From Parahoeflea alexandrii (GTDB lineage Bacteria > Pseudomonadota > Alphaproteobacteria > Rhizobiales > Rhizobiaceae): a stretch of 64,000 nucleotides of DNA. The stretch is taken from NCBI RefSeq assembly GCF_027214025.1, contig NZ_JAPWHB010000002.1:806001-870000 (forward strand), in the 5' to 3' direction. Both the position numbers and the translations under genes were made by a program. Shown here one piece after another: positions 27,688 to 56,147 of this stretch. The notes under the pieces were generated by a model that saw only the letters and a program-made list of their open reading frames with translations, searched no databases and was not told the origin of the DNA. Position 1 is the first letter of the stretch; each line of letters begins with the position of its first letter.

Positions 27688-28695
27688 ATGAAGAAGCTTC
27701 TCGCTTCCACCGTCCTCGCCGTTGGCCTTATGGGCTTTGCCGGCGCAGCATCCGCTGAAGATTGCGGACGCGTAACCATCGCCAACATGAACTGGGCATC
27801 CGCCGAAGTTCTGGCCAATATCGACCAGATCATCCTTTCCGAAGGCTATGGCTGCGAAGCCGAACTGGTCGCCGGCGACACCACGCCGACGCTCACTTCC
27901 ATGGTTGAAAAACAGGAGCCTGACGTTGCTCCCGAAGCCTGGATCAATTCGCTTCGCACCCTGCTCGATGCGGCCGTTGCAGAGGGCAAGCTGCACTATG
28001 CGTCCGAATCGCTCAGCGATGGCGGCGTCGAAGGCTGGTGGATCCCGAAATATTTCGCGGAAGCCCATCCGGAGATCAAGACGATTGATGACGCCTTGGC
28101 CAAGCCCGAGCTGTTCCCTGCCCCCGGCATGGAAAATGCCGGCAAGGGCGGCGTCTACAACTGCCCGGAAGGCTGGGGCTGCCGAATCATCACCACCAAC
28201 CTGTTCAAGGCCTATGGCGCTGCGGACAAGGGCTGGGTAACGGTCGAAACCGGTTCCGCCGCGGGCCTCGACGGCTCGATCGCCAAGGCCTATGAGAGGG
28301 AAGAACCGTGGCTCGGCTACTACTGGGCCCCCACCGCAATCCTTGGCAAGTACGAAATGGTCAAGCTTGACCATGGCGTCGAGCACAACAAGGAAGAGTG
28401 GGACCGTTGCACCTCCATCACCGACTGCCCGGATCCCAAGAAGAACGCCTGGTCCAAGTCCGAAGTCTACACGGTCGTGACCGACAGCTTCAAGAAGCGC
28501 GCCGGTCCGGCCTATGACTACCTCGCATCCCGCAGCTGGCCCAACTCCACTGTCAACGGCTTGCTGGCATGGATGGCCGACAACCAGGCGACCGGTGAAG
28601 CCGGCGCTCGTCATTTCCTCAAGGAAAACGAAGACATCTGGACCAAGTGGGTCTCCCCGGAGGCGGCCGAAAAGGTCAAGAAAGCAGTGATGTAA
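27688..28695 (+). CDS. ABC transporter substrate-binding protein, glycine betaine/choline type (ProX/OpuAC)
   Basis: A 335-residue periplasmic binding protein of the OpuAC family with a signal peptide (residues 1 to about 23, cleaved after AASA). Aromatic residues likely to form the quaternary-ammonium cage are abundant (NMNWASAEVL, EGWWIPKYFAE, WGCRI, YYWAPTAI). It probably captures glycine betaine, proline betaine or choline. It leads a binding protein-permease-ATPase operon, separated from the permease gene by a terminator-like hairpin. The context of betaine-metabolism genes supports a catabolic as well as an osmotic role. Confidence 0.9.
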   Translation: MKKLLASTVLAVGLMGFAGAASAEDCGRVTIANMNWASAEVLANIDQIILSEGYGCEAELVAGDTTPTLTSMVEKQEPDVAPEAWINSLRTLLDAAVAEGKLHYASESLSDGGVEGWWIPKYFAEAHPEIKTIDDALAKPELFPAPGMENAGKGGVYNCPEGWGCRIITTNLFKAYGAADKGWVTVETGSAAGLDGSIAKAYEREEPWLGYYWAPTAILGKYEMVKLDHGVEHNKEEWDRCTSITDCPDPKKNAWSKSEVYTVVTDSFKKRAGPAYDYLASRSWPNSTVNGLLAWMADNQATGEAGARHFLKENEDIWTKWVSPEAAEKVKKAVM

Positions 28696-28708
28696 TCCAT
28701 CGCAAACA

Positions 28709-28738
28709 ATGTGGCGGGCTCCGGTCCGCCACATTTTT
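28709..28738 (+). terminator. intrinsic terminator / attenuator between binding protein and permease genes
   Basis: ATGTGGCGG (28709-28717) and CCGCCACAT (28726-28734) form a perfect 9-bp stem with an 8-base loop followed by five T residues. Placed just after the binding-protein stop, it likely leaves the upstream mRNA more abundant than the permease-ATPase message. Confidence 0.75.
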
Positions 28739-28896
28739 ATCCAGATGATTGCGGTCGGGGAAGACAGCACCGCAACGGTCTGGAACCGCAACCGGGGGCA
28801 GCGACTAAAAGGAGCATTCATCTGGCCAAAGGCGGGTATGAATTGCTGATCGACTGATGACCGGCCAACAGAATTATCCGTATTTGGAGCGTCAAT

Positions 28897-29784
28897 ATGG
28901 ACTGGCTCATAAAATTTCCCGCCATGGATACCGAGAGACTGACAGCCTTGAAAAAGGCGATCGATCTCGGTTTTCGCGATTTCACCCGTGCTTATGGCGA
29001 TGTATTTGAAACAGCGCTCTATCCGGTGCAGTACTTCATGTATCGCGTCGAACAGCTGCTCACCACCTCGCCCTGGCCCCTGGTAATCCTGGCTTTCGCA
29101 GTGATTGCATGGCTGGCAAGCCGCAGTTGGAAAATCACCCTCGGTGTTGTCATCACGCTCTTGCTGATTGGCTATTTCGACATGTGGGAAGACACCATGA
29201 AGACCGTCGCGATGACGGTGGTGGCGACGATCATGGCGATTATTTTCGGCATACCCATCGGCATCCTGATGGGGCGCTCGGACCGGGTCCAGGCAATCCT
29301 CAATCCGATCCTCGACGTGATGCAGACCATGCCGAGTTTCGTCTATCTCATTCCGGTGGTCATGCTGCTCGGTATCGGTCGCGTCCCTGGCCTGATCGCG
29401 GTGATGGTCTACGCCATTCCACCGATCATCCGCCTGACCAATCTCGGCATAAGGCTCGTCGACAAGGATGTGCTTGAGGCAGCCGACGCCTTCGGCTCAT
29501 CCAACTGGCAACGCCTCAAGAACGTGCAGATGCCGCTGGCGCTGCCGACCATCATGGCCGGCGTCAACCAGACCATCATGATGGCGCTCGCCATGGTCGT
29601 GGTCGCCTCGATGATCGGCGTTCAGGGTCTCGGTCTGCCGGTGCTCAAAGCCATCGCCAACCAGTACTTCACGCTGGGTATTTTCAACGGCCTCGCCATT
29701 GTCGGCATTGCCATCATTTTCGACCGCACCAGCCAGGCCTATGGCAAGCGGCTGCAGAAGCACCTGGAGGTGGTACATGGCTGA
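28897..29784 (+). CDS. glycine betaine/proline-type ABC transporter permease (ProW-like)
   Basis: A 295-residue inner-membrane permease with about six to seven transmembrane helices and a BPD_transp_1 domain. The EAA-type loop EAADAFGSSNWQRLKNVQMPLALPTIMAG is visible near residue 196. The N-terminal 50 residues form an amphipathic extension (YPVQYFMYRVEQLL) common to ProW. Its stop overlaps the ATPase start by eight bases. The 157 bases before it hold no further gene. Confidence 0.92.
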   Translation: MDWLIKFPAMDTERLTALKKAIDLGFRDFTRAYGDVFETALYPVQYFMYRVEQLLTTSPWPLVILAFAVIAWLASRSWKITLGVVITLLLIGYFDMWEDTMKTVAMTVVATIMAIIFGIPIGILMGRSDRVQAILNPILDVMQTMPSFVYLIPVVMLLGIGRVPGLIAVMVYAIPPIIRLTNLGIRLVDKDVLEAADAFGSSNWQRLKNVQMPLALPTIMAGVNQTIMMALAMVVVASMIGVQGLGLPVLKAIANQYFTLGIFNGLAIVGIAIIFDRTSQAYGKRLQKHLEVVHG

Positions 29785-30829
29785 GCAAGAATCCGGCATC
29801 GGAATAAACGTCCGCAATCTCTACAAGATATTCGGCGCCAATCCGGATGCCTATATCGACGCCGTCAAGGGCGGCATGACCAAGGCCGAACTCAACGAAA
29901 AGCACAACCATGTGCTGGGCCTCAAGGACATCAATATCGATATGCCCGGCGGCGGCATCCAGGTGGTCATGGGCCTGTCCGGCTCGGGCAAGTCGACGCT
30001 GATCCGCCATATCAACCGGCTGATCGACCCGACCGCGGGCGAAGTCATCGTCGGCGACGAGGATGTGGTCAAGATGAACGAGGCGCAACTGCGCGAGTTC
30101 CGCCGCCACAAGACCGCGATGGTGTTTCAGAAGTTTGCGCTTCTGCCGCACCGCACGGTGCTTGAAAACACCGTCTACGGCCTGGAAATCCAGGGCGTCC
30201 CCCGCGAAGAGCAGGAAAAGCAGGCACGCGGCTGGATTTCCCGCGTCGGGCTCGACGGCTTCGAGGACAATTATCCCAACCAGCTTTCGGGCGGCATGCA
30301 GCAGCGTGTCGGCCTCGCCCGCGCCCTGACCAACGACGCGCCGATCCTGCTGATGGACGAAGCCTTCTCGGCGCTCGATCCGCTGATCCGCATGGACATG
30401 CAGACGGTCCTGCTCGATCTGCAGAAGGAAATCCGCAAGACCATCGTCTTCATCACCCACGATCTCGACGAGGCGCTGCGGCTCGGAGACCGCATCGCCA
30501 TCCTGCGCGATGGCGAGGTGGTCCAGCAGGGCACCAAGCAGGAAATCGTGCTGCGTCCGGCGGACGAGTACATTTCGAGCTTCGTGCGCGAGGTCAACCG
30601 CGGCCGGGTCATTTCGGTCGACATGGTGATGACACCGCTTTCCGGCGAACCCCAGGGCATGCCGGTGAAGCTGGGCACCGTGCTTGAAGTTGCAGCCAAG
30701 AAAATGACCGACAGCAATGTCCCCATGGCGCATGTCACGGATGCGGACGGCAAGCCGGTCGGTGCGCTGGGCATTAATGAGGTCATCTCGGCAATGGTGA
30801 CGCCGGTCGATCACGAGACTGCCGCCTGA
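29777..30829 (+). CDS. glycine betaine/proline-type ABC transporter ATPase (ProV-like)
   Basis: A 350-residue ATPase. Walker A GLSGSGKSTLIRHINRL, signature LSGGMQQRVGLARAL and Walker B ILLMDEAFSALDPL are present, followed by a C-terminal CBS-like region (about residues 285-340) typical of ProV/OpuAA. ATG at 29777 overlaps the permease end; an upstream in-frame start lies within the permease. It energises uptake of betaines. A strong terminator follows at 30887. Confidence 0.94.
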   Translation: MAEQESGIGINVRNLYKIFGANPDAYIDAVKGGMTKAELNEKHNHVLGLKDINIDMPGGGIQVVMGLSGSGKSTLIRHINRLIDPTAGEVIVGDEDVVKMNEAQLREFRRHKTAMVFQKFALLPHRTVLENTVYGLEIQGVPREEQEKQARGWISRVGLDGFEDNYPNQLSGGMQQRVGLARALTNDAPILLMDEAFSALDPLIRMDMQTVLLDLQKEIRKTIVFITHDLDEALRLGDRIAILRDGEVVQQGTKQEIVLRPADEYISSFVREVNRGRVISVDMVMTPLSGEPQGMPVKLGTVLEVAAKKMTDSNVPMAHVTDADGKPVGALGINEVISAMVTPVDHETAA

Positions 30830-30886
30830 TCTCCGTCTGCCGGGACCAGGGGTCCGGCAAAACGCAGGTTTCAGCCAATGGCCACA

Positions 30887-30996: not shown

Positions 30997-32007
30997 ATGT
31001 CCGCATCCAATCCGCTCGCCGACCTGCTGGCCGAAAAAGGCATCCTGCTCGCCGATGGCGCAACGGGCACAAACTTGTTCGCCATGGGACTGGAATCCGG
31101 CGAGGCTCCCGAGCTCTGGCTGGAATCCGCACCCGAGAAGATCACCAAGCTACACCAGGATTTCGTCGACGCGGGGTCGGACATCATCCTGACCAACAGT
31201 TTTGGCGGAACCCGCAACCGGCTCAAGCTGCACCAGGCCGATGACCGGGTGTTCGCGCTCAACAAGAAGGCCGCCGAGATCGCCCGCGCCGTCGCCGACA
31301 AGGCGCCCCGCAAGGTGATCGTGGCCGGCTCTGTCGGCCCGACCGGCGACCTGCTGGTTCCGCTTGGCGCCATGACCTACGACTCCGCGGTCGAATCCTT
31401 CGTCGAACAGATCGAGGGCCTCAAGGCCGGCGGCATCGATATTGTCTGGATCGAGACCATGTCAGCCCGCGACGAGATCCGGGCCGCGGCCGAAGCCGCC
31501 GTGCGCTGCGGCCTTCCTTACGTCTACACCGGCTCTTTCGACACAGCCGGCAAGACCATGATGGGCGTGCATCCGCGTGACATTCATTCCATCGCCAGCG
31601 ATATCGGCGAAGGCCCTGTCGCGGTTGGCGCCAATTGCGGCGTCGGAGCATCGGATATCCTGTCGTCCCTGCTCGACATGACATCTGCAGATCCGAAAGC
31701 CATCGTCGTGGTCAAGGGCAATTGCGGCATCCCGGAATTCAGGGGCACCGAGATTCACTACTCCGGCAACCCGCCACTGATGGCCGATTACGCCCGCCTC
31801 GCCATCGACGCCGGCGCCCGTATCATCGGCGGTTGCTGCGGCACCTCGTGCGACCACCTCGCCGCCATGCGCGAGGCCGTCGACAGCCACATCAAGGCGC
31901 AGCGCCCGACCGTGGAAACCATCGTCGAGCGTATCGGCCCGATGCGCAACACGGTGGCCACCGACAATCCCGCCCCCACCCGCGAGCGCCGCGGCCGACG
32001 CGGCTGA
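30997..32007 (+). CDS. betaine-homocysteine S-methyltransferase-like protein
   Basis: A 336-residue homocysteine S-methyltransferase family protein. The N-terminal GILLADGATGTNLFAMGLESG and the zinc ligands in GANCGVG (near residue 213) and GGCCGTSCDH (near 279-280) are present. It transfers a methyl group from a donor to homocysteine; in rhizobia, relatives use glycine betaine and yield dimethylglycine. The gene lies right after a betaine-type ABC transporter and before corrinoid methyltransferases. The C-terminus ends in an Arg/Gly-rich tail (TRERRGRRG), shared with other proteins of the cluster. Confidence 0.85.
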   Translation: MSASNPLADLLAEKGILLADGATGTNLFAMGLESGEAPELWLESAPEKITKLHQDFVDAGSDIILTNSFGGTRNRLKLHQADDRVFALNKKAAEIARAVADKAPRKVIVAGSVGPTGDLLVPLGAMTYDSAVESFVEQIEGLKAGGIDIVWIETMSARDEIRAAAEAAVRCGLPYVYTGSFDTAGKTMMGVHPRDIHSIASDIGEGPVAVGANCGVGASDILSSLLDMTSADPKAIVVVKGNCGIPEFRGTEIHYSGNPPLMADYARLAIDAGARIIGGCCGTSCDHLAAMREAVDSHIKAQRPTVETIVERIGPMRNTVATDNPAPTRERRGRRG

Positions 32008-32086: not shown

Positions 32087-34114
32087 CTACCGGTCCAGAC
32101 CGCGCGCCAGCCGCACCAGTTGCAGAAACTCCGACCTGTAGCCGAAAGGATCATCACCGCGCGCCTCGCGGGCAATCCGCTCGATCTCGTCATAGCTGAA
32201 ACCCGCGAGCTGGGCGATGTTGCGCAGTTTCTGGCCGAAGGCTGCCACCGCTATGGAAAACCGCACGTCCTGGGAAGCCGCAGCAAAGCTCTGGGCTTCC
32301 GCCTCCCGCGTCACCGGGATTTCGGTGAGCCGGCTTTCCGCTTCGCCCGGCGTCTTGGCACGGATCTTGAGGAACGCCAGCTCGTCGCCATGCTGGTCCG
32401 GGGTGGCCGGGGTCTCCGCACCATAGCGCAGGTCGCTGTTGAGCACTGCCGGGCTCCCGACCGGCGTGATCTCATAGATCGCGGTCACCGTGTGACCCGA
32501 GCCGATCTCGCCCGCATCCACCAGGTCATTGTTGAAGTCCTCACGGTTCAAGGCCCGGGTCTCGAAGCCGATCTGGCGATACTCCGCCACCATGGCCGGA
32601 TTGAACTCGAGCTGGAACTTTACATCCGACGCGATCGGGAACAGCGACGCCGAGGCTTCCTGCACCAGCGTCTTCTCGGCCTCCGCCAGGGTATCTATAT
32701 AGGCGGCAACGCCATTGCCGTTTTGCGCGATCGCCTGCATCAGCCAGTCGTTGTAATTGCCCTGCCCAAAGCCGAAGATCGACAGGAACACACCGCTCTC
32801 GCGCTTTTGTTCGATCATCGCGGTGAGCGACCGGTCGTCGCTCTGGCCGACATTGAAATCGCCATCGGTTGCGAGCATCACCCGGTTGACCCCGCCCTTG
32901 ACGAAGCCTTTCTCTGCCAGCCGGTAGGCCTCTTCCAGGCCCGCGGCGCCCGCCGTCGAGCCTCCCGGGCGCAGATTGTCCATCGCCTCGAGAACCTTGC
33001 GCTTGTCGGAAACCGGTGTCGGCTCCAGTACCGTACCCGCCTCGCCGGCGTAAGTGACGATCGACACCGTGTCGTCCGGATCAAGGGAGTCGACGAGAAG
33101 CCTGAAAGCCGATTTGAGCAAGGGCAGCTTGTCGGCGTCGTTCATCGAGCCGGAGACATCAATGAGAAACACCAGGTTGGCGGCCGGGCGCTCGGCCGGC
33201 GTGATGTCGTAGCCCTTCACCCCGATATGCAGGAGCCTGGTATCCGGATTCCATGGCGTCGGCGTCACCGTGACTGTGGCGCGAAACGGCGTTTCGGCGG
33301 ACTCCGGACCAGGATAGGCATAAGGGAAGTAATTGACCATTTCCTCCACCCGCACCGTCTCCGGCTCGGGCATCACGCCCTGCTTCAGTGCCCGGCGCAC
33401 CATCGCGTAGGACGAGGTGTCGACATCCGCCGAGAAGGTCGAAACCGGATGTTCGACTACGGACTTGACGCCGTGGCTCACGAAATTCTCGACCCGGTTG
33501 CGCTCTGGTTCAGCAAGCGGCGCGCGATAGGCCCGGTCTGCACCGGCGAACCCTTGCTGATTGACTGAGCCTGCGAGATCCTGCCGCGCGATCGCGCCCA
33601 TCGGCTGACCGATCGACTGCTTTGGCGCTGCGCCGACTGGTTGCAGGGCTTGTCTGGCGGCAGGCGATGCAGCCACCCTGGGCGACGGCGCCGCATCCGC
33701 TAGCTCCATGTCTTTCTGCCCCGAAGCAGGCGGCAATGGTGCTTCCATCGCCATCTCCGGGTCTGCGGATCGGCCCATTTCCAGCGGCGCCAGCAAATCC
33801 GGCGCAAAGCCGTGCTGGTCGCTGGCGATCTGCCAGGTCATGTAGGCTGCCGCAGGCAGGATCATCAAGGTGGCAAGCGCAGTGCCCGCCATATAGCGCT
33901 GGTTCATCAGTCCACTCCGTATCGAGGTTACGATACGGGTTAGACGTCCGACGTCGGGCGATCCTTGGGTGTTGCGTTGTTTTTGGGTGGCGCGTTGATT
34001 TTCCGGACCGGCCTTGTCAAAGGCCTGAAGCGCGCTGTCAAGCGCCTGGCGTTTGGCATCCTCAAGCGGGGGGGGCGCGCTGCGCGCCAGTCTTTTGAGA
34101 TCCTTGTCGATCAT
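32087..34114 (-). CDS. von Willebrand factor A (YfbK-like) membrane protein, partner of the ECF sigma factor
   Basis: A 675-residue protein. The N-terminal 80 residues (MIDKDLKRLARSAPPPLED) are cytosolic, then one transmembrane helix (about residues 80-100, LATLMILPAAAYMTW), a proline/alanine-rich periplasmic linker, a YfbK N-terminal domain, a VWA domain with MIDAS (VFLIDVSGSMND) and a C-terminal DUF3520-like region. ATG at 34114 overlaps the sigma factor stop by four bases and fixes the start. The cytosolic segment could act as the anti-sigma factor, but no zinc anti-sigma motif is seen. Confidence 0.82.
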   Translation of the reverse strand: MIDKDLKRLARSAPPPLEDAKRQALDSALQAFDKAGPENQRATQKQRNTQGSPDVGRLTRIVTSIRSGLMNQRYMAGTALATLMILPAAAYMTWQIASDQHGFAPDLLAPLEMGRSADPEMAMEAPLPPASGQKDMELADAAPSPRVAASPAARQALQPVGAAPKQSIGQPMGAIARQDLAGSVNQQGFAGADRAYRAPLAEPERNRVENFVSHGVKSVVEHPVSTFSADVDTSSYAMVRRALKQGVMPEPETVRVEEMVNYFPYAYPGPESAETPFRATVTVTPTPWNPDTRLLHIGVKGYDITPAERPAANLVFLIDVSGSMNDADKLPLLKSAFRLLVDSLDPDDTVSIVTYAGEAGTVLEPTPVSDKRKVLEAMDNLRPGGSTAGAAGLEEAYRLAEKGFVKGGVNRVMLATDGDFNVGQSDDRSLTAMIEQKRESGVFLSIFGFGQGNYNDWLMQAIAQNGNGVAAYIDTLAEAEKTLVQEASASLFPIASDVKFQLEFNPAMVAEYRQIGFETRALNREDFNNDLVDAGEIGSGHTVTAIYEITPVGSPAVLNSDLRYGAETPATPDQHGDELAFLKIRAKTPGEAESRLTEIPVTREAEAQSFAAASQDVRFSIAVAAFGQKLRNIAQLAGFSYDEIERIAREARGDDPFGYRSEFLQLVRLARGLDR

Positions 34115-34701
34115 TGCTCGTCTCCAGACCCGCGCAGCAGCGTTTCCAGCCGCTTCCGCGCGGTGTGCAGATGGTAGGAAACCGTCGATTCGGCGCAGCC
34201 CATTACGACGGCGGCATCGGCGTGGCTCAATTCCTCGCCGTAAACCAGCAGCACGGCATCGCGCTGCTTGTCCGGCAGGGTACGGACCGCATCCCACACA
34301 TAATCGCTGTGGCTCGGCTTGTAGCTCGCCATGTCATCCCCGAGAGCGGTGGTGTGGACCGCGAGCGCCTCAACCTTACGCATCTCGCGGGCAATGAACC
34401 TGGCATGGTCATGGGCCGCATTGATGGTGATCCGGTAGAGCCAGGTCCTGAACGCACTCTCGTTGCGCCATTTGCGGATCGCAAATCCAAGCCTGACACA
34501 GACATTCTGCGCAATGTCCTCGGCCGCGGACCTGTCGCGGCACCATTTCCAGGCCACGCCATGAATGAAGGCATAGTGGCGCTCGACAAGCATGGCGAAG
34601 GCTTCACGGTCGCCAACAGACGCCCGCTCCGCCAACGTGTCATCCGCCGGCTCTTCGTTGCTCTGGGTCTTCGGCTGCATGCAGGCACGCGTCTCCATCA
34701 T
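34111..34701 (-). CDS. ECF-type RNA polymerase sigma factor
   Basis: A 196-residue sigma-70 family factor with region 2 (residues about 25-95: AFAMLVERHYAFIHGVAWKW, then ITINAAHDHARFI) and region 4 (about 130-185: LPDKQRDAVLLVYGEELSHADAAVVMGCAESTVSYHLHTARKRL). The annotated ATG is 34701; an ATG at 34680 with a GGAG site is an alternative. It is translationally coupled to the VWA membrane protein, which suggests the pair senses an envelope signal. Confidence 0.87.
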   Translation of the reverse strand: MMETRACMQPKTQSNEEPADDTLAERASVGDREAFAMLVERHYAFIHGVAWKWCRDRSAAEDIAQNVCVRLGFAIRKWRNESAFRTWLYRITINAAHDHARFIAREMRKVEALAVHTTALGDDMASYKPSHSDYVWDAVRTLPDKQRDAVLLVYGEELSHADAAVVMGCAESTVSYHLHTARKRLETLLRGSGDEQ

Positions 34702-34752: not shown

Positions 34753-35463
34753 TTATGAATAAGCCGTCATATGGAACTGGATCTGTGCATCGTCGTAGCG
34801 ATGCCCGCGCTCGACAGGACAGGCGTCGCGCGCCAGGCAGCCGGACGTCCTGCAGCCTTTCCGGCCGGGTTCGGTCTTGAGCCAGGCGCGGCACGACAAG
34901 ACGTCGAGACCGGCGGGGCCAAACGCATTGACCGGACAGGCGGACAGGCACGGCTTGTCCGCGCAGGCGTCGCAGGGATGCGGCACGTCCGGGCCCACTG
35001 TGGTTTCTTCGATTGCCGCTATTTCCCCCTTTAGCCTCGCCAGCGCCTCCGGCCCGAACAGGATAGCACCGCGATAGCCGTGCCAAAGCCCGAAGTCCGG
35101 GTGAATAAGCATCCCAAGCGGCGAAGGCTTCAGCCCTTCGGCGGCCATCGCCCATTGCTGGAATGGCTGCCAGGGCCGGTCGGAGGGAAACACAGCCTCC
35201 CCGCCTGCAGCCTTAGCAAGCGGGGTGATCACGGTTTTCGACCAGGTGTCGAGCGGATCCGCGATCCCGGGATGCTTCTCCCACCAGGCCTCGAAAACCG
35301 GCCAGAACCCGCCGCCGGTGTGACCGACAAGGCAGATCGCCAATGCATCGCCGCCTGACGCCATGGCGACAGTCGTAATGTCGGGAAAAACCCATCCCCT
35401 CAGGCAAAGCCCGTGCCCGGCCAGCGCGGCATCAAGCGCGTCTATGCCGCCGGCACCGCTCAC
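34753..35463 (-). CDS. 4Fe-4S dicluster protein, QueG-like C-terminal region
   Basis: A 236-residue protein with two 4Fe-4S motifs near residues 163-177 (CDACADKPCLSACPV) and 190-215 (CRAWLKTEPG, then CRTSGCLARDACPV). The motif style resembles the C-terminal part of epoxyqueuosine reductase (QueG), but the cobalamin-binding N-terminal domain is not evident. It could pass electrons to a corrinoid or other enzyme. It lies between the sigma factor and the MttB-family gene, co-oriented but with a separate start. Function is unknown. Confidence 0.7.
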   Translation of the reverse strand: MSGAGGIDALDAALAGHGLCLRGWVFPDITTVAMASGGDALAICLVGHTGGGFWPVFEAWWEKHPGIADPLDTWSKTVITPLAKAAGGEAVFPSDRPWQPFQQWAMAAEGLKPSPLGMLIHPDFGLWHGYRGAILFGPEALARLKGEIAAIEETTVGPDVPHPCDACADKPCLSACPVNAFGPAGLDVLSCRAWLKTEPGRKGCRTSGCLARDACPVERGHRYDDAQIQFHMTAYS

Positions 35464-35576: not shown

Positions 35577-37166
35577 TCAAGTGAACGCGTCGGGCATCGA
35601 ATCCTTGCGCTGGGCGATGTAGTCGAGCAAGGCCTGGTCGATGGCCGGATCCAGCTCGGGCGCCACATAACCATCGAGCCATGAGCGACAGAGCGCCCGG
35701 GCCCGTTCCTCGATGCGCTTCTCGCCTTCGGCCAGCCACTGCTCATAGGAATTGTTGTCGGCCAGCGACGAGCGATAAAACGCCTGCTGGAAATTGGCCT
35801 GCGTATGCGCACAGCCGAGATAGTGGTTGCCCGGTCCGACTTCGGCAATTGCGTCCATCGCCTGACCGGTTTCCGACAGGTCCACGCCTTCGGCAAAGCG
35901 CTGCTGCATGCCGAGCTGATCGACGTCGATCATGAATTTCTCATAAGAGGAGACCAGCCCGCCCTCGAGCCATCCGGCAGAGTGCAGGGCAAAATTGGTG
36001 CCCGCCAGCAGCGTCATGTTCAACGTCGAGGCGCTCTCGTGCGCGGCCTGCGCGTCGGGCACCTTCGAGCCACAGAGCGAACCGCCTGTGCGGAACGGGA
36101 TCTTCAGCCGCCGCGCCAGCTGCGCAGCACCATAGGAAACAAGCGCCGGCTCGGGCGTGCCAAACGTCGGCGCGCCCGACTGCATCGAAATAGACGCGGC
36201 GAAGGTGCCGAACAGCACCGGCGCACCGGGACGGATCAGCTGGGTAAAGGCAGCGCCCGCCAGCACTTCGGCCAGAATCTGGGTAAGCGTACCGGCCACG
36301 GTCACCGGGCTCATCGCACCGGCGAGGATGAACGGCGAGACCACGCAGGCCTGGTTGTTGCGGGCATAGACCTTCAGCGCGCCGAGCATGGTTTCGTCAA
36401 ACACCATCGGCGAGTTGGCGTTGATCAGGTTGAGCGTCACGCAGTTCTGGTCGACGAACTCTGCGCCGAACAGGATCTTGCACATTTCAATCGTGTCTTC
36501 AGCCCGTTCCGGTGCGGTCACCGACCCCATGAACGGCTTGTCGCTGTATTTCATGTGGCTGTAGACCATGTCGAAATGGCGCTTGTTGACCGGCACGTCG
36601 ACCGGTTCGCACACCGTGCCGCCCGAATGGTGCAGCGCCGGCGCCATGTAGGCCAGTTTGACGAAATTGCGGAAATCCTCGATCGTCGCGTAACGGCGCT
36701 CGCCGTCGAGATCCCGCACGAACGGAGGTCCGTAGACCGGGGCGAACACGGTGGCCTTGCCGCCGATCTGCACAGAACGCGCAGGATTGCGAGCGTGCTG
36801 GGTGAACACTTCCGGCGCGGTCTTCAGCAATTCGCGGCACAGCCCCTTCGGGAAGCGCACCCGCTCGCCCTTGATGTCGGCGCCGGCCTCGCGCCACAGC
36901 GCGATGGCTTCCGCGTCATCGCGAAACTCTATGCCGATTTCCTCAAGCACGGTGTCGGCATTGCGCTCGATCAGGCTCAGACCTTCCTCGTCCAGCACTT
37001 CGTAGTTGCCGAGCTTGCGCATGATGAACGGCATCGACTGGCCGGGACCGCCGCCCGAGCGTTGCGCCCGCCGAGCCGCAGCACCCCTGCCGCGCCGGCC
37101 GGCGCCCGCCTCGGGTGCTGCGTCTTGAGCCAAATCGGGTGTGGAAAGCGTATCTGGATGAGCCAT
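35577..37166 (-). CDS. MttB-superfamily methyltransferase, non-pyrrolysine (quaternary amine:corrinoid)
   Basis: A 529-residue member of the trimethylamine methyltransferase family. No in-frame UAG is used, so it is the non-pyrrolysine type, of which MtgB (glycine betaine) and MtcB (carnitine) are characterised. Family-like sequences include FAPVYGPPFVRDLDGERRYAT (abbreviated), GGTVCEPVDVPVNKRH and GTPEPALVSYGAAQLARRLKIPF. The N-terminus has an Arg/Gly-rich tract (GAGRRGRGAAARRAQRSGGG). I prefer ATG at 37166; an upstream ATG at 37199 has no clear ribosome site. It is divergent from the corrinoid-protein gene, with about 250 bases of shared upstream DNA. The substrate (glycine betaine, proline betaine or other) is unproven. 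Confidence 0.88.
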   Translation of the reverse strand: MAHPDTLSTPDLAQDAAPEAGAGRRGRGAAARRAQRSGGGPGQSMPFIMRKLGNYEVLDEEGLSLIERNADTVLEEIGIEFRDDAEAIALWREAGADIKGERVRFPKGLCRELLKTAPEVFTQHARNPARSVQIGGKATVFAPVYGPPFVRDLDGERRYATIEDFRNFVKLAYMAPALHHSGGTVCEPVDVPVNKRHFDMVYSHMKYSDKPFMGSVTAPERAEDTIEMCKILFGAEFVDQNCVTLNLINANSPMVFDETMLGALKVYARNNQACVVSPFILAGAMSPVTVAGTLTQILAEVLAGAAFTQLIRPGAPVLFGTFAASISMQSGAPTFGTPEPALVSYGAAQLARRLKIPFRTGGSLCGSKVPDAQAAHESASTLNMTLLAGTNFALHSAGWLEGGLVSSYEKFMIDVDQLGMQQRFAEGVDLSETGQAMDAIAEVGPGNHYLGCAHTQANFQQAFYRSSLADNNSYEQWLAEGEKRIEERARALCRSWLDGYVAPELDPAIDQALLDYIAQRKDSMPDAFT

Positions 37167-37417
37167 CAAAATGCCTGCACTTTTTAAATTGCGCACCATC
37201 GCGCTGATTTACCCATGCTAGCCAAAACCGGCCACCGCACATTCCTCAAAGCGCCAAGCCTTGGCGCATCAGGAATACCGTATAAAAAGCGCCTCGTCGC
37301 ATTTTCCGTTTTACGCGTCGTTTTCAAGGAACTTTTTGCAAACAATCGCCTATATCGCTAAGCACAATGGGTCTGGTGCGTCGAACCACCGGACGGGCGC
37401 ATTCAAGGGAGATACCG

Positions 37418-39802: not shown

Positions 39803-39929
39803 CGACCGCGCCATTTGAACACGCCGGTTTCCATTGTAAACCTGCAACAGGGCTGCATTCCGCGCCGACAATAGCCGGATCTTAACCTCGAGCGGACTAT
39901 CCTTGCGTTTTCACCGCGATGGAATCCGC

Positions 39930-43867: not shown

Positions 43868-43930
43868 TCCAAAAGTCGGACAATGACACTGGCAAACCAT
43901 TGCTTTGGACGGGTGACTGAAATGAAGTCA

Positions 43931-43995
43931 CCCCAACACCCTCATCCTGAGGTGCGAGCTCCGAAGGGGCGAGCCTCGAAGGGCGAGGGTGTTGG
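43931..43995. repeat. palindromic repeat, left copy, flanking a GIY-YIG gene
   Basis: The outer 11 bases CCAACACCCTC (43933-43943) and GAGGGTGTTGG (43985-43995) are a perfect inverted repeat. The inside carries ATCCTGAGGTGCGAGC and GAGCCTCGAAGGGC. An inverted, partly diverged copy lies at 44312-44379. The motif is like rhizobial palindromic repeats. Confidence 0.85.
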
Positions 43996-44005
43996 CCTTC
44001 TGGCG

Positions 44006-44311: not shown

Positions 44312-44379
44312 CCTGCCCCTCGCCCTTCGAGGCTCGCATTCGCCTTGCTCATGCTCGCACCTCAGGATGAGGGTCAGGA
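44312..44379. repeat. palindromic repeat, right copy, flanking a GIY-YIG gene
   Basis: In reverse complement this reads ACCCTCATCCTGAGGTGCGAGC, an unmatched centre, then GCGAGCCTCGAAGGGCGAGGG, matching the two halves of the left copy. It begins at the base after the GIY-YIG start codon and ends 36 bases before the activase start. Confidence 0.85.
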
Positions 44380-44415
44380 TAGAGCATCGCGCCTCACTTG
44401 CAAAATGGTGACCCA

Positions 44416-46455
44416 ATGACCGACCATCTCGTCCTGTTCATGCCCTCGGGCAAGCGTGGCCGCTTTCCCACCGACACGCCGGTGCTCGATGCCGCGCGGC
44501 AACTGGGCGTGCATGTCGAGAGCGTTTGCGGCGGCCGCGGCATCTGCGGCCGTTGCCAGGTCGACGTCCAGGAAGGCGTCTTCGCCAAGCACGGCATCAC
44601 CTCGTCCAACGAGCACATCTCGCCGTTTGGCGGCAACGAGGTGCGCTACGCCGAAAAACGCGATCTCAAGGCCGGCCGCAGGCTGTCCTGCTCGGCAAAG
44701 ATCCTCGGCGACCTGGTCATCGATATCCCGCAGGACGCCGTGGTCAACGCGCAGGTCGTGCGCAAGGATTCCGACGGGCGCGTCATCGAACGCAATCCGG
44801 CCATTCACATGTGCTATGTCGAGGTCGAGGAGCCGGACATGCACAAGCCGCTCGGCGACCTTGACCGGCTGCTGCTGGCGATCGAGGCCGACTGGGGCTT
44901 CAAGGGCCTGGCCATCGACACCTACCTGCTCGGCCAGGTGCAGCAGATCCTGCGCAAGGGCGACTGGAAGGTCACCGCCGCCGTGCACGAACCCGTCGAC
45001 GGCGGACAGGCGACACTGGTGGCACTTTATCCGGGGCTGAAGAACGAGGCCTACGGCATTGCCTGCGACATCGGCTCGACTACCATTGCCATGCACCTGT
45101 CGTCGCTGCTTTCGGGCCGCACGCTCGCCTCGTCGGGTACGTCGAACCCGCAGATCCGCTTCGGCGAGGATCTGATGAGCCGCGTCTCCTACGTGATGAT
45201 GAACCCGGAAGGCCGCGAAGGCATGACGGTGGCCGTGCGCGAGGCGATCAACGGACTGATCGACAAGGTCTGCGCCGAGGGCGGGATCGACCGCACCGAC
45301 ATCCTCGACGCGGTCTTCGTCGGCAACCCGATCATGCATCACCTGTTCCTGGGCATCGATCCGACCGAACTCGGCGGCGCGCCTTTCGCGCTCGCCGTCT
45401 CCGGCGCCGTCAACGTCAAGGCCTCCGAGATCGACATTCCGCTCAACAGGGGCGCACGGGTCTACATGCTGCCCTGCATCGCCGGTCATGTCGGCGCCGA
45501 TGCGGCAGCGGCAACGCTCACCGAAGGCCCGCACCGGCAGGACGAGATGATGCTGCTGGTCGATGTCGGCACCAATGCCGAGATCGTACTCGGCAACTCG
45601 GCCCGCACGGTGGCCGCCTCCTCGCCCACCGGCCCCGCCTTCGAGGGCGCTGAAATCTCCTGCGGCCAGCGCGCCGCACCCGGCGCGATCGAGCGCATCC
45701 GCATCGATCCGGAAACGCTTGAACCGCGCTACCGCGTCATTGGCATCGAGCCCTGGTCGGATGAGCCCGGGTTTGACGAGGCCGCGAAGAAGGTCGGCGT
45801 CACCGGCGTCTGCGGCTCCGGCATCATCGAGATCATCGCCGAGATGTACCTCGCCGGCATCATCACCGAGGATGGCGTCATCAACGGCGATCTCGCCGCC
45901 CGCAGCCCGCGGATCACCGGCAATGGCCGCACCTTCTCCTACCTGCTGCGCGATGGCGAGCAGCGGCTGATGGTGACCCAGACCGATGTCCGCGCAATCC
46001 AGCTGGCCAAGGCGGCACTCTATGCCGGCGTCAAGCTGTTGATGGACAAGCAGGGTATCGATCATGTCGACCGTATCGGGCTGGCCGGCGCCTTCGGCTC
46101 GTTCATCGACCCGAAATATGCCCTCGTGCTGGGTCTCGTGCCCGATTGCGATCTCGAGAAGGTCAAGGCCGTCGGCAACGCGGCGGGCACGGGCGCCCGC
46201 ATGGCGCTGCTGAACCGCGATCACCGTCGCGAGATCGAGCAGACCGTCACCCGGATCGAAAAGATCGAAACGGCGCTTGAGCCGAAATTCCAGGAGCATT
46301 TCGTCAACGCCATGGCCTTCCCCAACAAGGTCGATGCGTTCCCGAAGCTCACCGAGGTGGTCAAACTGCCGGAACGCTCGATGGACACCGATGCCGCCGA
46401 CGGCATCGAGCCCGGCGCCGGACGCCGCCGCGGAGGCCGGCGCAACCGGGGCTAG
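44416..46455 (+). CDS. RamA-like reductive activase of corrinoid proteins (2Fe-2S plus ASKHA)
   Basis: A 679-residue activator of corrinoid methyltransferase systems. An N-terminal plant-type ferredoxin domain has Cys38, Cys44, Cys47 (CGGRGICGRC) and Cys92. It is followed by a middle linker and an ASKHA ATPase-like domain starting ACDIGSTTIAMHL, with VDVGTNAEIVLGN and GLAGAFGSFIDP. It reduces oxidised Co(II) corrinoid back to Co(I). I chose ATG 44416 with GGTGA upstream, not the TTG at 44398. The C-terminal GAGRRRGGRRNRG is another Arg/Gly-rich tail. A repeat-GIY-YIG element separates it from the methyltransferase gene. Confidence 0.92.
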   Translation: MTDHLVLFMPSGKRGRFPTDTPVLDAARQLGVHVESVCGGRGICGRCQVDVQEGVFAKHGITSSNEHISPFGGNEVRYAEKRDLKAGRRLSCSAKILGDLVIDIPQDAVVNAQVVRKDSDGRVIERNPAIHMCYVEVEEPDMHKPLGDLDRLLLAIEADWGFKGLAIDTYLLGQVQQILRKGDWKVTAAVHEPVDGGQATLVALYPGLKNEAYGIACDIGSTTIAMHLSSLLSGRTLASSGTSNPQIRFGEDLMSRVSYVMMNPEGREGMTVAVREAINGLIDKVCAEGGIDRTDILDAVFVGNPIMHHLFLGIDPTELGGAPFALAVSGAVNVKASEIDIPLNRGARVYMLPCIAGHVGADAAAATLTEGPHRQDEMMLLVDVGTNAEIVLGNSARTVAASSPTGPAFEGAEISCGQRAAPGAIERIRIDPETLEPRYRVIGIEPWSDEPGFDEAAKKVGVTGVCGSGIIEIIAEMYLAGIITEDGVINGDLAARSPRITGNGRTFSYLLRDGEQRLMVTQTDVRAIQLAKAALYAGVKLLMDKQGIDHVDRIGLAGAFGSFIDPKYALVLGLVPDCDLEKVKAVGNAAGTGARMALLNRDHRREIEQTVTRIEKIETALEPKFQEHFVNAMAFPNKVDAFPKLTEVVKLPERSMDTDAADGIEPGAGRRRGGRRNRG

Positions 46456-49532: not shown

Positions 49533-50534
49533 ATGGCCTCACCGAACAAACAGAAGCGGTCGATCGTCTTTTTCATGGTTCCGGAGTTTTCGATGATCGC
49601 CTTCTCGATGGCGATCGAGCCGTTGCGTCTGGCCAACCGGATGCTCGGATACGAGTGCTACAAATGGCGGCTGACGTCCCATGATGGAGAGCCGGTGCCG
49701 GCCTCCAACCAGGTTGTGGTCGGCGTCAACACCTCGCTCGCCGACGAACGGCGCAGCCTGTCGGGCGAAAACCGGCCGACAATGGTGTTTGTCTGTTCCG
49801 GCGTCAATGTCGAGCGATTCCAGAACAAGTCGGTCCTGGCCTGGCTGCGCGAGGAGCACAATCGCGGTGTTGCCGTCGGCGGCCTGTGCACCGGCGCCCA
49901 CATCCTGGCGCAGGCGGGCCTGCTGTCGGGACGTCGTTGCGCCATCCACTGGGAGAACCTGCCTGGCTTCGCCGAAGCCTTCCCGAAGGCCAATGTCTAT
50001 GCCGATCTTTATGAAATAGACGGATCGATCCACACCTGCGCCGGCGGCACCGCGGCACTCGACATGATGCTGAGCCTGATCGGCGAAGATCATGACGACA
50101 CGCTGGTCAACCGCATCTGTGAAATGGCGCTGACCGATCGCGTCCGCAATGCCCACGACCGCCAGCGCCTGCCGTTGCGCGCCCGTCTGGGTGTGCAGAA
50201 CGCCAAGGTGCTCTCCATCATCGAGTTGATGGAGGCAAATCTCTCAGAACCGCTGTCGCTGATCGAGATCGCCGACGATGCCGGCCTGTCGCGGCGGCAG
50301 ATCGAGCGCCTGTTCCGCCAGGAAATGGGCCGTTCCCCGGCCCGCTACTATCTGGAAATCCGTCTCGACCGGGCCCGGCACCTGCTCATCCAGTCACCGA
50401 TGCCGGTGGTAGAGGTGGCGGTGGCCTGCGGCTTCGTCTCCGCCTCGCACTTCTCCAAGTGCTACCGCGAACTCTACAACCGCTCGCCGCAGCAGGAACG
50501 CGCCGAGCGCAAGCAGTACCAGACGGCAGCCTGA
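49533..50534 (+). CDS. GlxA-family AraC-type regulator (GbdR-like)
   Basis: A 333-residue protein with an N-terminal DJ-1/PfpI-like domain (residues about 10-180, with VAVGGLCTGAHILAQAGLL) and a C-terminal AraC helix-turn-helix pair (about 225-325, with LIEIADDAGLSRRQIERLFRQEMG and VACGFVSASHFSKCYREL). GbdR and related regulators that respond to glycine betaine and dimethylglycine share this build. The placement next to the betaine/methyl-transfer region supports such a role, but targets are inferred. Confidence 0.87.
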   Translation: MASPNKQKRSIVFFMVPEFSMIAFSMAIEPLRLANRMLGYECYKWRLTSHDGEPVPASNQVVVGVNTSLADERRSLSGENRPTMVFVCSGVNVERFQNKSVLAWLREEHNRGVAVGGLCTGAHILAQAGLLSGRRCAIHWENLPGFAEAFPKANVYADLYEIDGSIHTCAGGTAALDMMLSLIGEDHDDTLVNRICEMALTDRVRNAHDRQRLPLRARLGVQNAKVLSIIELMEANLSEPLSLIEIADDAGLSRRQIERLFRQEMGRSPARYYLEIRLDRARHLLIQSPMPVVEVAVACGFVSASHFSKCYRELYNRSPQQERAERKQYQTAA

Positions 50535-53375: not shown

Positions 53376-53523
53376 GGTTCAGCTTATCATGGCAGCAAGC
53401 GAGGCTGAACCGGATTTTCGGTTGGCGGTGGTGCAGATGGTGGGCAATCTGTGCCCGCAACTCCCAGAGGCCGGTGTTGCAGCGGCAGCAGGGACCAACC
53501 TCGCGACAACGGGTCCGTCCGCA

Positions 53524-53559
53524 AGAAAAAGCCGTGCTGCCCCAGGTGAGCAGCACGGC
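53524..53559 (-). terminator. intrinsic terminator after the dimethylglycine dehydrogenase-like gene
   Basis: On the minus strand GCCGTGCTG (53559-53551) pairs with CAGCACGGC (53539-53531), followed by TTTTTC (53530-53525). It lies 26 bases after the stop at 53586 and ends that transcript. The remaining bases of 53376-53585 hold no gene that I can support. Confidence 0.85.
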
Positions 53560-53585
53560 CATTCATTCCGGCAATAAGCGAACGA

Positions 53586-56147
53586 TCAGCTCCGCGGCTT
53601 GAGGTTTTCCGGGTCGTAAAGCGGCGTGTAGCCAACCGCCGCCACTTCGACCGGGTAGGTTTCGTTGAAGTACTCGACATTGAGCTTGCGCCCGACCTGG
53701 CAGTAATCCCAGGGCAGATAGGCCAGCGCGATGTTTTTGCCGATAGTCGGACCGTAGGCGATCGACGTCGTGTAGGACCGGCGGCCGAGTTCGTCGACAA
53801 GCGTCTCGCCGGTTTCCGGATCCATCACCGGCAGGACGCCGACCGGGTAGCGGGCCACGCCCTTGGCGTCGACATTCTCGGTCATCACCAGCGTGCACAG
53901 CATCGCCGGCTGGTTGGCGCGCGCCTTGTATTCCAGGTGTTTTTCCTTGCCGCGGAAATCGGCTTCCTTGACCTTCGGCCGCGCAAGGTCGCTTTCGATC
54001 AGGTTGTACTGGGTCAGAAGATCGGCGTTCTGCAGCCGCAGGCTCTTTTCCATGCGGCGCGAGTTTGCGTAGGTCTCGACACCGACCGGCATCACCCCGG
54101 TCGACCGCAGCGCGTCCCAGACGGCCAGGCCGTCCTCGTATTTCATGTGCAGCTCCCAGCCCTGCTCGCCGACATAGGAGAGGCGGAAGGCGGAAACCGT
54201 CCTGCCGGCGATCTCGATCGGCTTGATCGCGGCAAAGGGGAAGTTCTCGATGTCGAGGCCCGCCGGATCGGCGACCACCTTCTTCAGCGTCTCGCGGGCG
54301 TTGGGGCCCCAGATGCCGATGGTGATGAACTTCTCTGTCACATCGGTGATGGTGACATCGTAGCCCTTGTCCTGGGCAATACGCTGCATGTAGTGGAAGT
54401 CGCGCGGCCCGGCATCCGCGCCGTTGATCAGCCGGCAACGGTCGGCCATGCGGATGACCGTGAAGTCGGCCCGTACCATGCCCTCGTCGTCGAGGAAGTG
54501 GGTGTAGATACCCTTGCCGATCATGTTGTCGCCGCCGATCTTGGCGGCGCAAAGCCATTCGAGCATCTCGACGTGATCCGGTCCCTCGATGTCGACCATG
54601 TGGAAATGCGACAGGTTGATGATGCCGCAATCTTCGGTCAACTGCAGATGCTCGGCATTCGACACCCGCCAGAAATGACGGTTGTCCCACTCGTTTGCCC
54701 GAACCGGAACCCGGTCGCCGAACTTCTCGAGCAGGTGCGCGTTCGAGGCATAGCCATGTGCGCGCTCCCAGCCGCCGAGTTCCATGAAATGACCGCCAAG
54801 CTCGACTTCGCGCTCGTAGAACGGCGACCGCTTGACGCCGCGGCCCGAAGCATAGGGCTCGCGCGGATGGATCGCCGGGAAGTAGATCTTCTGCGCCGCC
54901 TCGCGGCAGCGGCCCTCGATGAATTCCTCGGTCATCTGGTGCGGGTAGAACCGCGCATAGTCGATCGAGTTATGGTCGATCTCGGTGCGCCCGTCGGTCA
55001 TCCAGTCGGCAATCAGCTTGCCGTAACCCGGACCGTCCTTGACCCATATGGCGACGCAGTACCACAGGCCGCGCACCTTCTGGCTTTCGCCGCAGGAGGG
55101 CCCGCCGGCGGCCGAGACCTGCAGCAGGCCGTTGAAGGAGTGGCTCTCATTGTAGCCGAGCTCGCCGAGGATCGGGGTCAGTTCCATGGCCCGCTCCAGT
55201 GGCTCAAGGATCTGCTCCATCTCGAGATCGCGCTGTGACGGCGAAAGCCGCGCCTCATTCTTTTCCAGGATGTCCCGGGGATGGCACAGCCGCGGCTCGT
55301 CGGTCTCGTAATAGCCCCATTCGATCTGGCCGCCCTCGGCGGTCTTCGGATCGCCGGTGTCGCGCATATAGGCCGAATTGCCCTGGTCGCGCATCAGCGG
55401 CCAGCCGATGTCCTTGCCGGTGCCTTCGAACTCGTTGTAGGGGCCGAAAAAGGTCAGCGGGTGATCGACCGGCATCACCGGCAGGTCTTCGCCGACCATC
55501 TCCGCGATCAGCCGCCCCCAGATGCCGGCGCAGATGACCACATGGTCGGCCATGATGGTGCCGCGATGGGTGACGACGCCCTTGATGCGCCCGCCCTCGA
55601 CGATCAGCGACTGGGCCGGTGTGTTAGCGAAGACGCTAAGCTTGCCGGTCTTTTCGCCCGCATCGACGAGCTTGCCGGCAACCGTCTGCGAGCGCGGAAT
55701 GACAAGGCCTGCGTCCGGGTCCCACAGGGCGCCCGCGACCATTTCTTCCTCGACCAGCGGGAACTTTGCCTTCACCTCAGCCGGACCGATCAGGCTCGCC
55801 CGCGTCCCGAAGGCTTTGCCGGAGGATATCTTGCGCTTGATCTCTTCCATCCAGGTCTCGTCGCCCGCGCGCACGATTTCCAGTCCGCCGATACGGGCGT
55901 AGTGGCCCATCTTCTCGAAGAAATCGATCGAGTACTGCGTCGTCCAGACCGACAAATAGTCGTGGCTGGTCGTGTAGCAGAAATCCGAGGCATGCGCCGT
56001 GGACCCGATGTCGGTCGGCACGCCGGACTTGTCGATGCCGACAATGTCGTCCCATCCACGTTCGATCAGATGGTGCGCGATGGAGGCGCCGACAATCCCG
56101 CCCACACCGATGATCACGACCTTCGCCTGCTTCGGAAACTCTGCCAT
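53586..56147 (-). CDS. dimethylglycine/sarcosine dehydrogenase-like FAD protein with GcvT domains
   Basis: An 853-residue flavoenzyme. An N-terminal DAO domain carries the FAD site VVIIGVGGIVGASIAHHL and, at about residue 53, STAHASDFCYTTSHD containing the histidine used for covalent FAD in the family. An FAO_M-type linker is followed by a GcvT domain and a GcvT C-terminal domain (about residues 440-850), which use THF to accept the one-carbon unit. It should oxidise dimethylglycine or sarcosine and give methylene-THF. It is monocistronic, ended by the terminator at 53524. Confidence 0.88.
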   Translation of the reverse strand: MAEFPKQAKVVIIGVGGIVGASIAHHLIERGWDDIVGIDKSGVPTDIGSTAHASDFCYTTSHDYLSVWTTQYSIDFFEKMGHYARIGGLEIVRAGDETWMEEIKRKISSGKAFGTRASLIGPAEVKAKFPLVEEEMVAGALWDPDAGLVIPRSQTVAGKLVDAGEKTGKLSVFANTPAQSLIVEGGRIKGVVTHRGTIMADHVVICAGIWGRLIAEMVGEDLPVMPVDHPLTFFGPYNEFEGTGKDIGWPLMRDQGNSAYMRDTGDPKTAEGGQIEWGYYETDEPRLCHPRDILEKNEARLSPSQRDLEMEQILEPLERAMELTPILGELGYNESHSFNGLLQVSAAGGPSCGESQKVRGLWYCVAIWVKDGPGYGKLIADWMTDGRTEIDHNSIDYARFYPHQMTEEFIEGRCREAAQKIYFPAIHPREPYASGRGVKRSPFYEREVELGGHFMELGGWERAHGYASNAHLLEKFGDRVPVRANEWDNRHFWRVSNAEHLQLTEDCGIINLSHFHMVDIEGPDHVEMLEWLCAAKIGGDNMIGKGIYTHFLDDEGMVRADFTVIRMADRCRLINGADAGPRDFHYMQRIAQDKGYDVTITDVTEKFITIGIWGPNARETLKKVVADPAGLDIENFPFAAIKPIEIAGRTVSAFRLSYVGEQGWELHMKYEDGLAVWDALRSTGVMPVGVETYANSRRMEKSLRLQNADLLTQYNLIESDLARPKVKEADFRGKEKHLEYKARANQPAMLCTLVMTENVDAKGVARYPVGVLPVMDPETGETLVDELGRRSYTTSIAYGPTIGKNIALAYLPWDYCQVGRKLNVEYFNETYPVEVAAVGYTPLYDPENLKPRS

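Follow-up and report, generated by a model that had tools for sequence, protein, structure and literature searches.

The mtg locus and its conservation

We analysed a stretch of 64,000 nucleotides from Parahoeflea alexandrii (NCBI RefSeq assembly GCF_027214025.1, contig NZ_JAPWHB010000002.1, positions 806,001 to 870,000), here called the window, which carries a group of genes probably for corrinoid (vitamin B12)-dependent methyl transfer that we refer to as the mtg locus. The host genome comprises 5.54 Mb in 68 contigs, and the MttB protein of the window is 94% identical to the copy of Hoeflea sp. BAL378 and 99% identical to a copy in an alphaproteobacterial metagenome-assembled genome. A preliminary description, made from the sequence alone, had read the area as an aerobic betaine demethylation pathway beside a full B12 cluster. 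Domain and family models recovered every gene it had named, each close to where it had been placed. Its gene list lacked MtgE, the DUF1638 protein, a [4Fe-4S] protein and a PF13769 protein, and because MtgE was overlooked, so was a role in methionine synthesis.

Conservation was assessed at related loci from Rhizobiaceae and relatives, taken as the best 80 of 525 confirmed MttB homologue loci. The window proteins were searched by tblastn (expect value, E, 1e-8) in 10-kb flanks around mttB; eight of the 80 loci were dropped as not over 21 kb, and the 72 with full flanks were used. The genes of the system are listed below with the number of these 72 loci that gave a flank match.

30997-32007, + strand: mtgE, bmt-like homocysteine S-methyltransferase (MetH homocysteine module); NF005718 559 bits against a cut-off of 338, PF02574; 62 loci
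34753-35463, - strand: [4Fe-4S] protein of 236 amino acids with a predicted MMACHC/QueG-like fold, candidate B12 reductase or loader (FeS protein); 67 loci
35577-37199, - strand: MttB-superfamily methyltransferase, MtgB candidate, non-pyrrolysine; PF06253 781 bits
37418-38119, + strand: mtgC, stand-alone corrinoid protein (MetH cobalamin module), divergent from mttB; PF02607 and PF02310; 72 loci
38373-39011, + strand: DUF1638 protein, corrinoid reactivation companion; PF07796 100 bits; 72 loci
40844-41149, + strand: PF13769 ('Virulence_fact') protein of 101 amino acids; 94.7 bits; 70 loci
41142-41729, + strand: MetV-like protein (DUF5981); PF12225 93 bits; 51 loci
41726-42826, + strand: MetF2, methylene-tetrahydrofolate reductase family, presumed to oxidise methyl-tetrahydrofolate; PF02219 124 bits; 50 loci
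42905-43867, + strand: mtgD, pterin methyltransferase (MetH folate module); PF00809, NF005719 391 bits against a cut-off of 259; 69 loci
44398-46455, + strand: RamA/RACo-type ATP-dependent corrinoid activase with an N-terminal 2Fe-2S domain; PF14574 305 bits, PF17651, PF17650 and PF00111; 69 loci

These counts indicate that the grouping of the genes is not due to chance; the loci are related by ancestry, so that the counts are not independent trials. The mtgC gene lay on the strand opposite mttB in all 72 loci, as did mtgE, mtgD, ramA, metV, metF2 and the PF13769 gene wherever they were found, and the FeS gene shared the strand of mttB in 67 of 67. The median gene positions, which do not give the order locus by locus, agreed with the order in the window. 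At the level of whole genomes, DUF1638 was found in 70 of 101 family genomes, MTTB in 71, PF13769 in 70, PF02965 in 55 and the FeS profile in 62, and DUF1638 and MTTB agreed in 100 of the 101.

Methionine synthase modules and a probably shared corrinoid protein

Three products of the locus align side by side with classical methionine synthase. The MetH model (1182 positions) was matched by MtgE at 4-325, by MtgD at 319-595 and by MtgC at 633-863. No protein of the host genome exceeded the MetH cut-off: the three strong matches were these same window proteins, and the other match was a 30.9-bit fragment elsewhere. The MetH reactivation domain (PF02965) was not found in the host genome either; among the family genomes it was missing from 40 of the 70 with DUF1638 and from 6 of the 31 without it. 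The presence of separate MtgE, MtgD and MtgC modules in a genome with no MetH points to a methionine synthase in pieces.

The corrinoid protein appears to serve more than one methyl donor. It was the single TIGR02370 match in the genome, below the cut-off of that model, as were the matches in all 101 family genomes. The host genome has one match each to TIGR02370, DUF1638 and PF13769 and five places matching PF06253, which suggests a hub with several donors. The window mttB gene has no in-frame stop, which marks it as non-pyrrolysine and bears out the earlier assignment. The locus thus holds the elements by which an MtgBCDE system is recognised, namely separate MtgE, MtgD and MtgC, a non-pyrrolysine PF06253 enzyme, and RamA-like and DUF1638 proteins, with no classical MetH (an absence that is usual and not obligatory).

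We conclude that the locus is very probably an MtgBCDE system, known in this strain from its genes, in which one B12 protein would be common to methionine synthesis and betaine demethylation. In Ruegeria pomeroyi a dual role of MtgC and MtgD has been shown: as reported in the passages of PMC12478193 on which we draw throughout, loss of mtgC or mtgD makes the cells dependent on added methionine, and with methionine supplied the mutants still fail to grow on glycine betaine. Fitness data for Phaeobacter inhibens, in the relevant passages of PMC5764234, show that the RamA-like gene and the DUF1638 gene are important for methionine synthesis. By analogy, we infer that the system would be active in P. 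alexandrii as follows. MtgC would be methylated by MttB-family enzymes from a quaternary amine, or by MtgD from methyl-tetrahydrofolate. Methyl-MtgC could then pass its methyl group to MtgD, forming methyl-tetrahydrofolate that MetF2 and, presumably, MetV would oxidise for energy and carbon, or to MtgE, which would methylate homocysteine to methionine. RamA and the DUF1638 protein would return oxidised cob(II)alamin to cob(I)alamin, and the MMACHC-like [4Fe-4S] protein would probably give MtgC usable cobalamin by removing the upper ligand of adenosylcobalamin, by reduction, or both.

The aerobic corrinoid-dependent betaine demethylation proposed in the preliminary description is the best reading of half the locus, and the R. 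pomeroyi relative carries it out; the methionine synthase role was what it missed. Its remark that such systems are known mostly from genome context is outdated, as the R. pomeroyi study offers mtgC and mtgD mutants, proteomics and ocean transcripts (PMC12478193). The system matches the MtgBCDE system published in September 2025, so the pathway itself is not new.

Some observations weigh against this conclusion. First, MtgC missed the two anaerobic, GBT-specific MtgC models, NF047996 and NF047995, with 215 of 370 and 174.5 of 310 bits. Second, the host has another way to methionine. Elsewhere in the genome, a 365-residue Meth_synt_2 protein (PF01717, 126 bits), the only PF01717 match of the genome, adjoins a MesX gene (PF08908, 587 bits), so that MesD-like and MesX genes stand side by side (L104 1711-3761, G000:C66). 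According to the passages of PMC7857596 used here, MesD/MesX makes methionine without B12 or methyl-folate and needs oxygen. From its sequence matches, this pair is probably a second, B12-independent methionine route. Disrupting the split enzyme in this strain might therefore have a visible effect on methionine supply only when MesD is removed or oxygen is absent. Once the pair was found, the view that the host relies on the split enzyme alone for methionine was abandoned.

Two conserved companion proteins

The FeS and PF13769 proteins are two conserved companions of the system for which we found no published role, and they are the new part of the finding. The main text of PMC12478193 does not contain the terms MetV, virulence or ferredoxin and does not name the MetV, FeS or PF13769 proteins. 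A full-text search of open-access papers for the accession PF13769 found none, and, among the open-access papers listed for MMACHC/QueG-like bacterial proteins, none dealt with the FeS protein, as judged by title and start of abstract.

Both proteins track DUF1638 within the family. The FeS protein was found (profile threshold E up to 1e-15) in 62 of the 70 family genomes with DUF1638 and in none of the 31 others, and PF13769 in 69 of the 70 and in one of the 31, so that DUF1638 and PF13769 disagreed in two genomes. Across 190 genomes of the class, DUF1638 occurred in 34, PF13769 in 34 (30 shared) and the FeS profile, at E up to 1e-10, in 39 (25 shared). With 30 of 34 DUF1638 genomes against 4 of 156 others, PF13769 keeps its link to DUF1638 class-wide. 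The Fisher p-values calculated for these co-occurrences, in the family and in the class, do not correct for phylogeny. In 14 control genomes, DUF1638 was matched only in Methanosarcina acetivorans and PF13769 only in Bacillus subtilis. The PF13769 protein is thus associated with the corrinoid hub; this is an association only, and we propose no mechanism for it. An alignment of 34 PF13769 sequences had 35 invariant columns, and the structural model was of moderate confidence (predicted local distance difference test, pLDDT, 77.9). Its best PDB match had an E of 0.86, with no resembling structure, and nothing was concluded about the fold.

The FeS protein gave a clearer structural result. The window copy alone had no Pfam or NCBIfam match at E 0.001. 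An alignment of 66 FeS sequences had 35 invariant columns, six of them cysteines, and two further cysteines that were nearly invariant; the AlphaFold (AF2) model built from it reached a pLDDT of 91.6 and a predicted template modelling score of 0.89. A Foldseek search of the PDB with this model returned human MMACHC first (E 1.4e-4, probability 1.00, TM score about 0.55, root-mean-square deviation 6.6 Å, 16% identity), followed by the epoxyqueuosine reductase QueG (E 6e-4) and, more weakly, by PCE reductive dehalogenase (E 8e-3). The model therefore has the predicted fold of the MMACHC/CblC family. PF16690, the MMACHC family, was matched by 43 of the 66 FeS homologues (E up to 10, best E 3.3e-4). 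The PDB labels MMACHC as cyanocobalamin reductase/alkylcobalamin dealkylase. Cobalamin is bound by MMACHC, QueG and reductive dehalogenases alike. The FeS protein shares its predicted fold with human MMACHC (CblC) and QueG and differs from MMACHC in having eight conserved cysteines for probable Fe-S clusters, which MMACHC itself presumably lacks, at about 16% identity. It differs from QueG in length (236 residues against about 370-380 for QueG chains), and no QueG-specific family was among its Pfam matches.

De novo synthesis ends in adenosylcobalamin, and methyltransferases require the bare cofactor, so that one can reasonably predict, next to mttB, a loader that dealkylates or reduces the cofactor. 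From the predicted fold, we propose that the FeS protein may load or reduce cobalamin for MtgC. More broadly, and only tentatively, alphaproteobacteria with the shared corrinoid hub may use an iron-sulphur relative of CblC (MMACHC), encoded beside mttB in Rhizobiaceae, to strip or reduce adenosylcobalamin and load MtgC, with the PF13769 protein as a second partner; the two would then be the components, missing so far, that load B12 into the split methionine synthase.

Several observations weigh against this proposal. The MMACHC match is one of fold only, as the TM score, deviation and identity given above indicate, and the window FeS copy did not match PF16690. Families of 4Fe-4S proteins matched the FeS homologues about as often (Fer4_11 in 34 of 66, best E 0.0033). 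In a profile search of PDB sequences, in which nothing was significant by sequence alone, MMACHC reached E 0.3-0.5 (positions 120-144 of the FeS profile) and QueG, aligned at the Fe-S motif, 0.14, and three ferredoxin-type chains (E 0.05-0.08) ranked above both. The link of the FeS protein to the system is weaker outside the family: class-wide, 14 genomes have it without DUF1638 and 9 have DUF1638 without it, and the profile searches were limited to 28 scored candidates per genome in the family and 15 in the class, so that the FeS protein may have been overlooked in some genomes. Among 36 class loci with the FeS gene, it adjoined mtgC and DUF1638 twice (L141, L151) and mtgD and ramA once (L144), and it lay within 4 kb of an MttB gene in two (L121, L124), which together with L122 also carried a GbdR-like gene within 5 kb. 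In the other 31 of the 36 no mtg gene or MttB lay near it, some flanks being ended by contig ends. These loci and the DUF1638 mismatches suggest that the FeS protein may have a broader role, connected with B12 or with something else. The match in B. subtilis likewise shows that the PF13769 family is not confined to the mtg system. Outside Rhizobiaceae, the largest cluster of FeS neighbours other than the FeS family itself (17 of 36 loci) looks antisense to the FeS gene (coordinates checked for the representative only), and the next is an ABC-transporter ATPase-like protein in 6 of 36 loci; neither led to a conclusion.

The FeS protein might instead not bind B12 and act as a simple ferredoxin-type donor of electrons to RamA or as some unrelated reductase. 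We regard this as a possibility worth keeping in view, short of an even chance: the protein has ferredoxin-like cysteine motifs and weak ferredoxin-type sequence matches, and RamA needs a low-potential donor, as is established for RamA/RACo activases. However, the high-confidence model aligns best, along most of the chain, with structures of B12 proteins (MMACHC, QueG and reductive dehalogenases), and PF16690 is the family matched by most of the homologues.

Substrate, neighbouring genes and known systems

The features around and between the genes of the system are as follows, with counts again out of the 72 loci.

681-26699, mostly - strand, CobK on +: cobalamin biosynthesis cluster, with a cobalamin riboswitch at 24808-25182 (-)
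27688-30829, + strand: betaine-class ATP-binding cassette transporter (OpuAC/ProW/ProV), matched in 22, 17 and 33 loci respectively
27688-28695, + strand: OpuAC component of this transporter, 208 bits
28897-29784, + strand: second gene of this transporter
29699-30829, + strand: ProV component; proV model TIGR01186 348.6 bits against a cut-off of 326.6
32087-34701, - strand: extracytoplasmic function (ECF) sigma factor, then a YfbK-type von Willebrand (VWA) protein; 37 and 36 loci
between the DUF1638 and PF13769 genes: ExoD; 27 loci; not counted as part of the system
39903-40700, + strand: Formyl_trans_N protein, also between the DUF1638 and PF13769 genes; 43 loci; not counted as part of the system
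between the activase and the GbdR-like gene: major facilitator superfamily protein and LysR regulator
49533-50534, + strand: GbdR-like AraC regulator; NF052371 366 bits, below the cut-off of 480; 16 loci, flank-limited
53586-56147, - strand: dimethylglycine/sarcosine-dehydrogenase-type FAD/GCV_T protein with DAO, FAO_M and GCV_T domains

By comparison with its paralogues, the linked MttB probably uses glycine betaine. Against the PDB, the window MttB scored 981.6 bits with 4yyc, 412.6 bits with 9yce ('Glycine betaine methyltransferase') and 127 bits with the trimethylamine methyltransferase 7xcl. One of the five PF06253 places in the genome is truncated, and the four full-length paralogues scored 413 (window), 384 (contig C50), 346 and 193 bits with 9yce. 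The C50 paralogue (L100 8572-12892, G000:C50) is followed by an FMN/pyridine-nucleotide oxidoreductase, which we take to be of StcD type (N-methylproline demethylase); a corrinoid route for proline betaine is possible for this pair. None of the five neighbours scanned beside the C10 paralogue (45% identical to the window MttB) was an obvious catabolic gene. A third (27% identical; L102 7321-15286, G000:C41) lies with two dimethylglycine/sarcosine-dehydrogenase-type FAD/GCV_T proteins and an aldehyde dehydrogenase. The truncated copy (L103 8523-9113, G000:C5) is a C-terminal piece of 196 residues, 57% identical to C10; no further MttB-like stretch was present in the 18.5 kb examined near it, and it is probably a remnant.

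The assignment to glycine betaine has points against it. The window MttB is the closest of the full-length paralogues to 9yce, a score that does not settle the substrate, and the C50 paralogue scores nearly as high (384 against 413 bits) at 55% identity to the window MttB. The locus might thus be a split methionine synthase whose linked MttB uses another methylated amine, such as proline betaine, carnitine or choline derivatives. Members of the MttB superfamily differ in substrate (PMC12478193). The genome has its five MttB places, and the presumed StcD-type neighbour of C50 hints at proline betaine for that near-equal scorer. We consider this the less likely case, as the window MttB is the top 9yce scorer of the four and a betaine-class transporter adjoins it. 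Passages of PMC9842639 and PMC12155760 gave no help on the MttB substrate.

The genes identified in the cobalamin cluster encode CbiB/CobD, CobC, CobB, CobA, CobK, three TP_methylase proteins, CbiG-CobJ, CobH, CbiX, CobO, CobN, CobW, CobU, CbtA and CobQ. The adjacent cluster described earlier as full is therefore real and near-complete, CobG, CobF, CobS, CobT and CobV having not been searched for. A Gp49/DUF891 gene lies within it (6804-7187, +). Its position next door had been presented as notable; the adjacency is there, and has already been published for Sinorhizobium meliloti, in which the cobalamin operon lies together with MtgBCDE and both reactivation modules (PMC12478193). This second occurrence would suit a functional coupling specific to the mtg pathway rather than inherited chromosomal order, a reading that we find doubtful. 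Only 12 of the 72 loci had a cobQ match inside the 10-kb flank, a count limited by flanks that often end first, since cobQ is about 9-10 kb off in the window. Riboswitch control of the mtg genes was rejected at Rfam gathering thresholds, the sole element found in the window being that of the cob cluster, with none ahead of the mtg genes.

The ECF sigma and VWA genes sit between mtgE and the FeS/mttB pair. The formyl-transferase-like protein, within the mtg run, shows weak similarity to folate formyltransferases (48 of 150 bits with the PurN model), and a folate link is possible. The regulator called GbdR-like in the preliminary description has similarity of that kind, below the model cut-off. 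For the gene at 53586-56147, described there as a dimethylglycine dehydrogenase, the domain architecture agrees, but none of the 20 NCBIfam models listed reached its cut-off, and relatives gave distant matches at just 7 of 72 loci, with a median identity of 24% (the 10-kb flanks usually stop short of its position), so that the name is one of class only. Its membership in the betaine/B12 system is doubtful, and it was left out of the cluster. Beside it, at 56343-59593 (+), PtuA-like (101 bits, cut-off 500) and PtuB/TIGR02646 HNH-like (39.7 bits, cut-off 52.15) genes form a Septu/retron-effector-like defence pair. An open reading frame of 178 amino acids at 43883-44419 was treated as spurious, having matches in 2 of 72 loci only and no family match; its start may resemble a translated rhizobial repeat element.

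That the locus serves betaine demethylation only, with MttB, the corrinoid protein and the pterin methyltransferase being catabolic and the BHMT-like gene an ordinary betaine-homocysteine methyltransferase using betaine directly, is very improbable: MtgE exceeds the cut-off of NF005718, named betaine--homocysteine S-methyltransferase, a betaine-class transporter and a GbdR-like regulator are nearby and MesD/MesX offers a separate methionine route, but the genome has no other MetH, the three modules tile most of MetH, mutants in homologues are methionine auxotrophs (PMC5764234, PMC12478193), and the S. meliloti and roseobacter MtgE homologues lack the betaine-binding residues of BHMT, as stated in PMC12478193.

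The locus can be compared with several known systems. With that of R. pomeroyi DSS-3 and S. meliloti (Mausz et al. 2025, PMC12478193) the locus shares MtgB, MtgC, MtgD, MtgE, RamA, DUF1638 and MetF2, the absence of MetH and, with S. meliloti, a co-localised cobalamin operon; here the host is Hoeflea-like, the parts lie in one stretch and MesD/MesX provides the second methionine route. The three-part methionine synthase of P. inhibens (Price et al. 2018, PMC5764234) likewise encodes its homocysteine, folate and B12 modules in separate genes and has the RamA-like and DUF1638 proteins, whereas its genes, by locus tag, are more scattered, and the passages of that paper used here do not mention the FeS and PF13769 proteins. 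The MtgB/MtgC/MtgA system of Desulfitobacterium hafniense (PDB 2qne and 9yce for MtgB) has in common the presumed chemistry and the MttB-family enzyme (413 bits), but it belongs to an anaerobe and is catabolic, as described in PMC12478193, and its curated MtgC models were not reached here. The MesD/MesX pair (Price et al. 2021, PMC7857596), which the host genome carries elsewhere, is a separate route.

These findings provide a clear further example, from the Rhizobiaceae, of a pathway described in 2025. Beyond that, they offer two conserved genes whose distribution among genomes follows that of the system. With one corrinoid protein and several MttB paralogues, the substrate range is open to direct genetic testing. 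The useful remainder of the finding is the companion pair, above all the predicted CblC-like iron-sulphur protein. Its predicted fold is that of the human protein lost in cblC disease and, if this is true, it would offer a genetically tractable bacterial parallel for the handover of B12 to methionine synthase.

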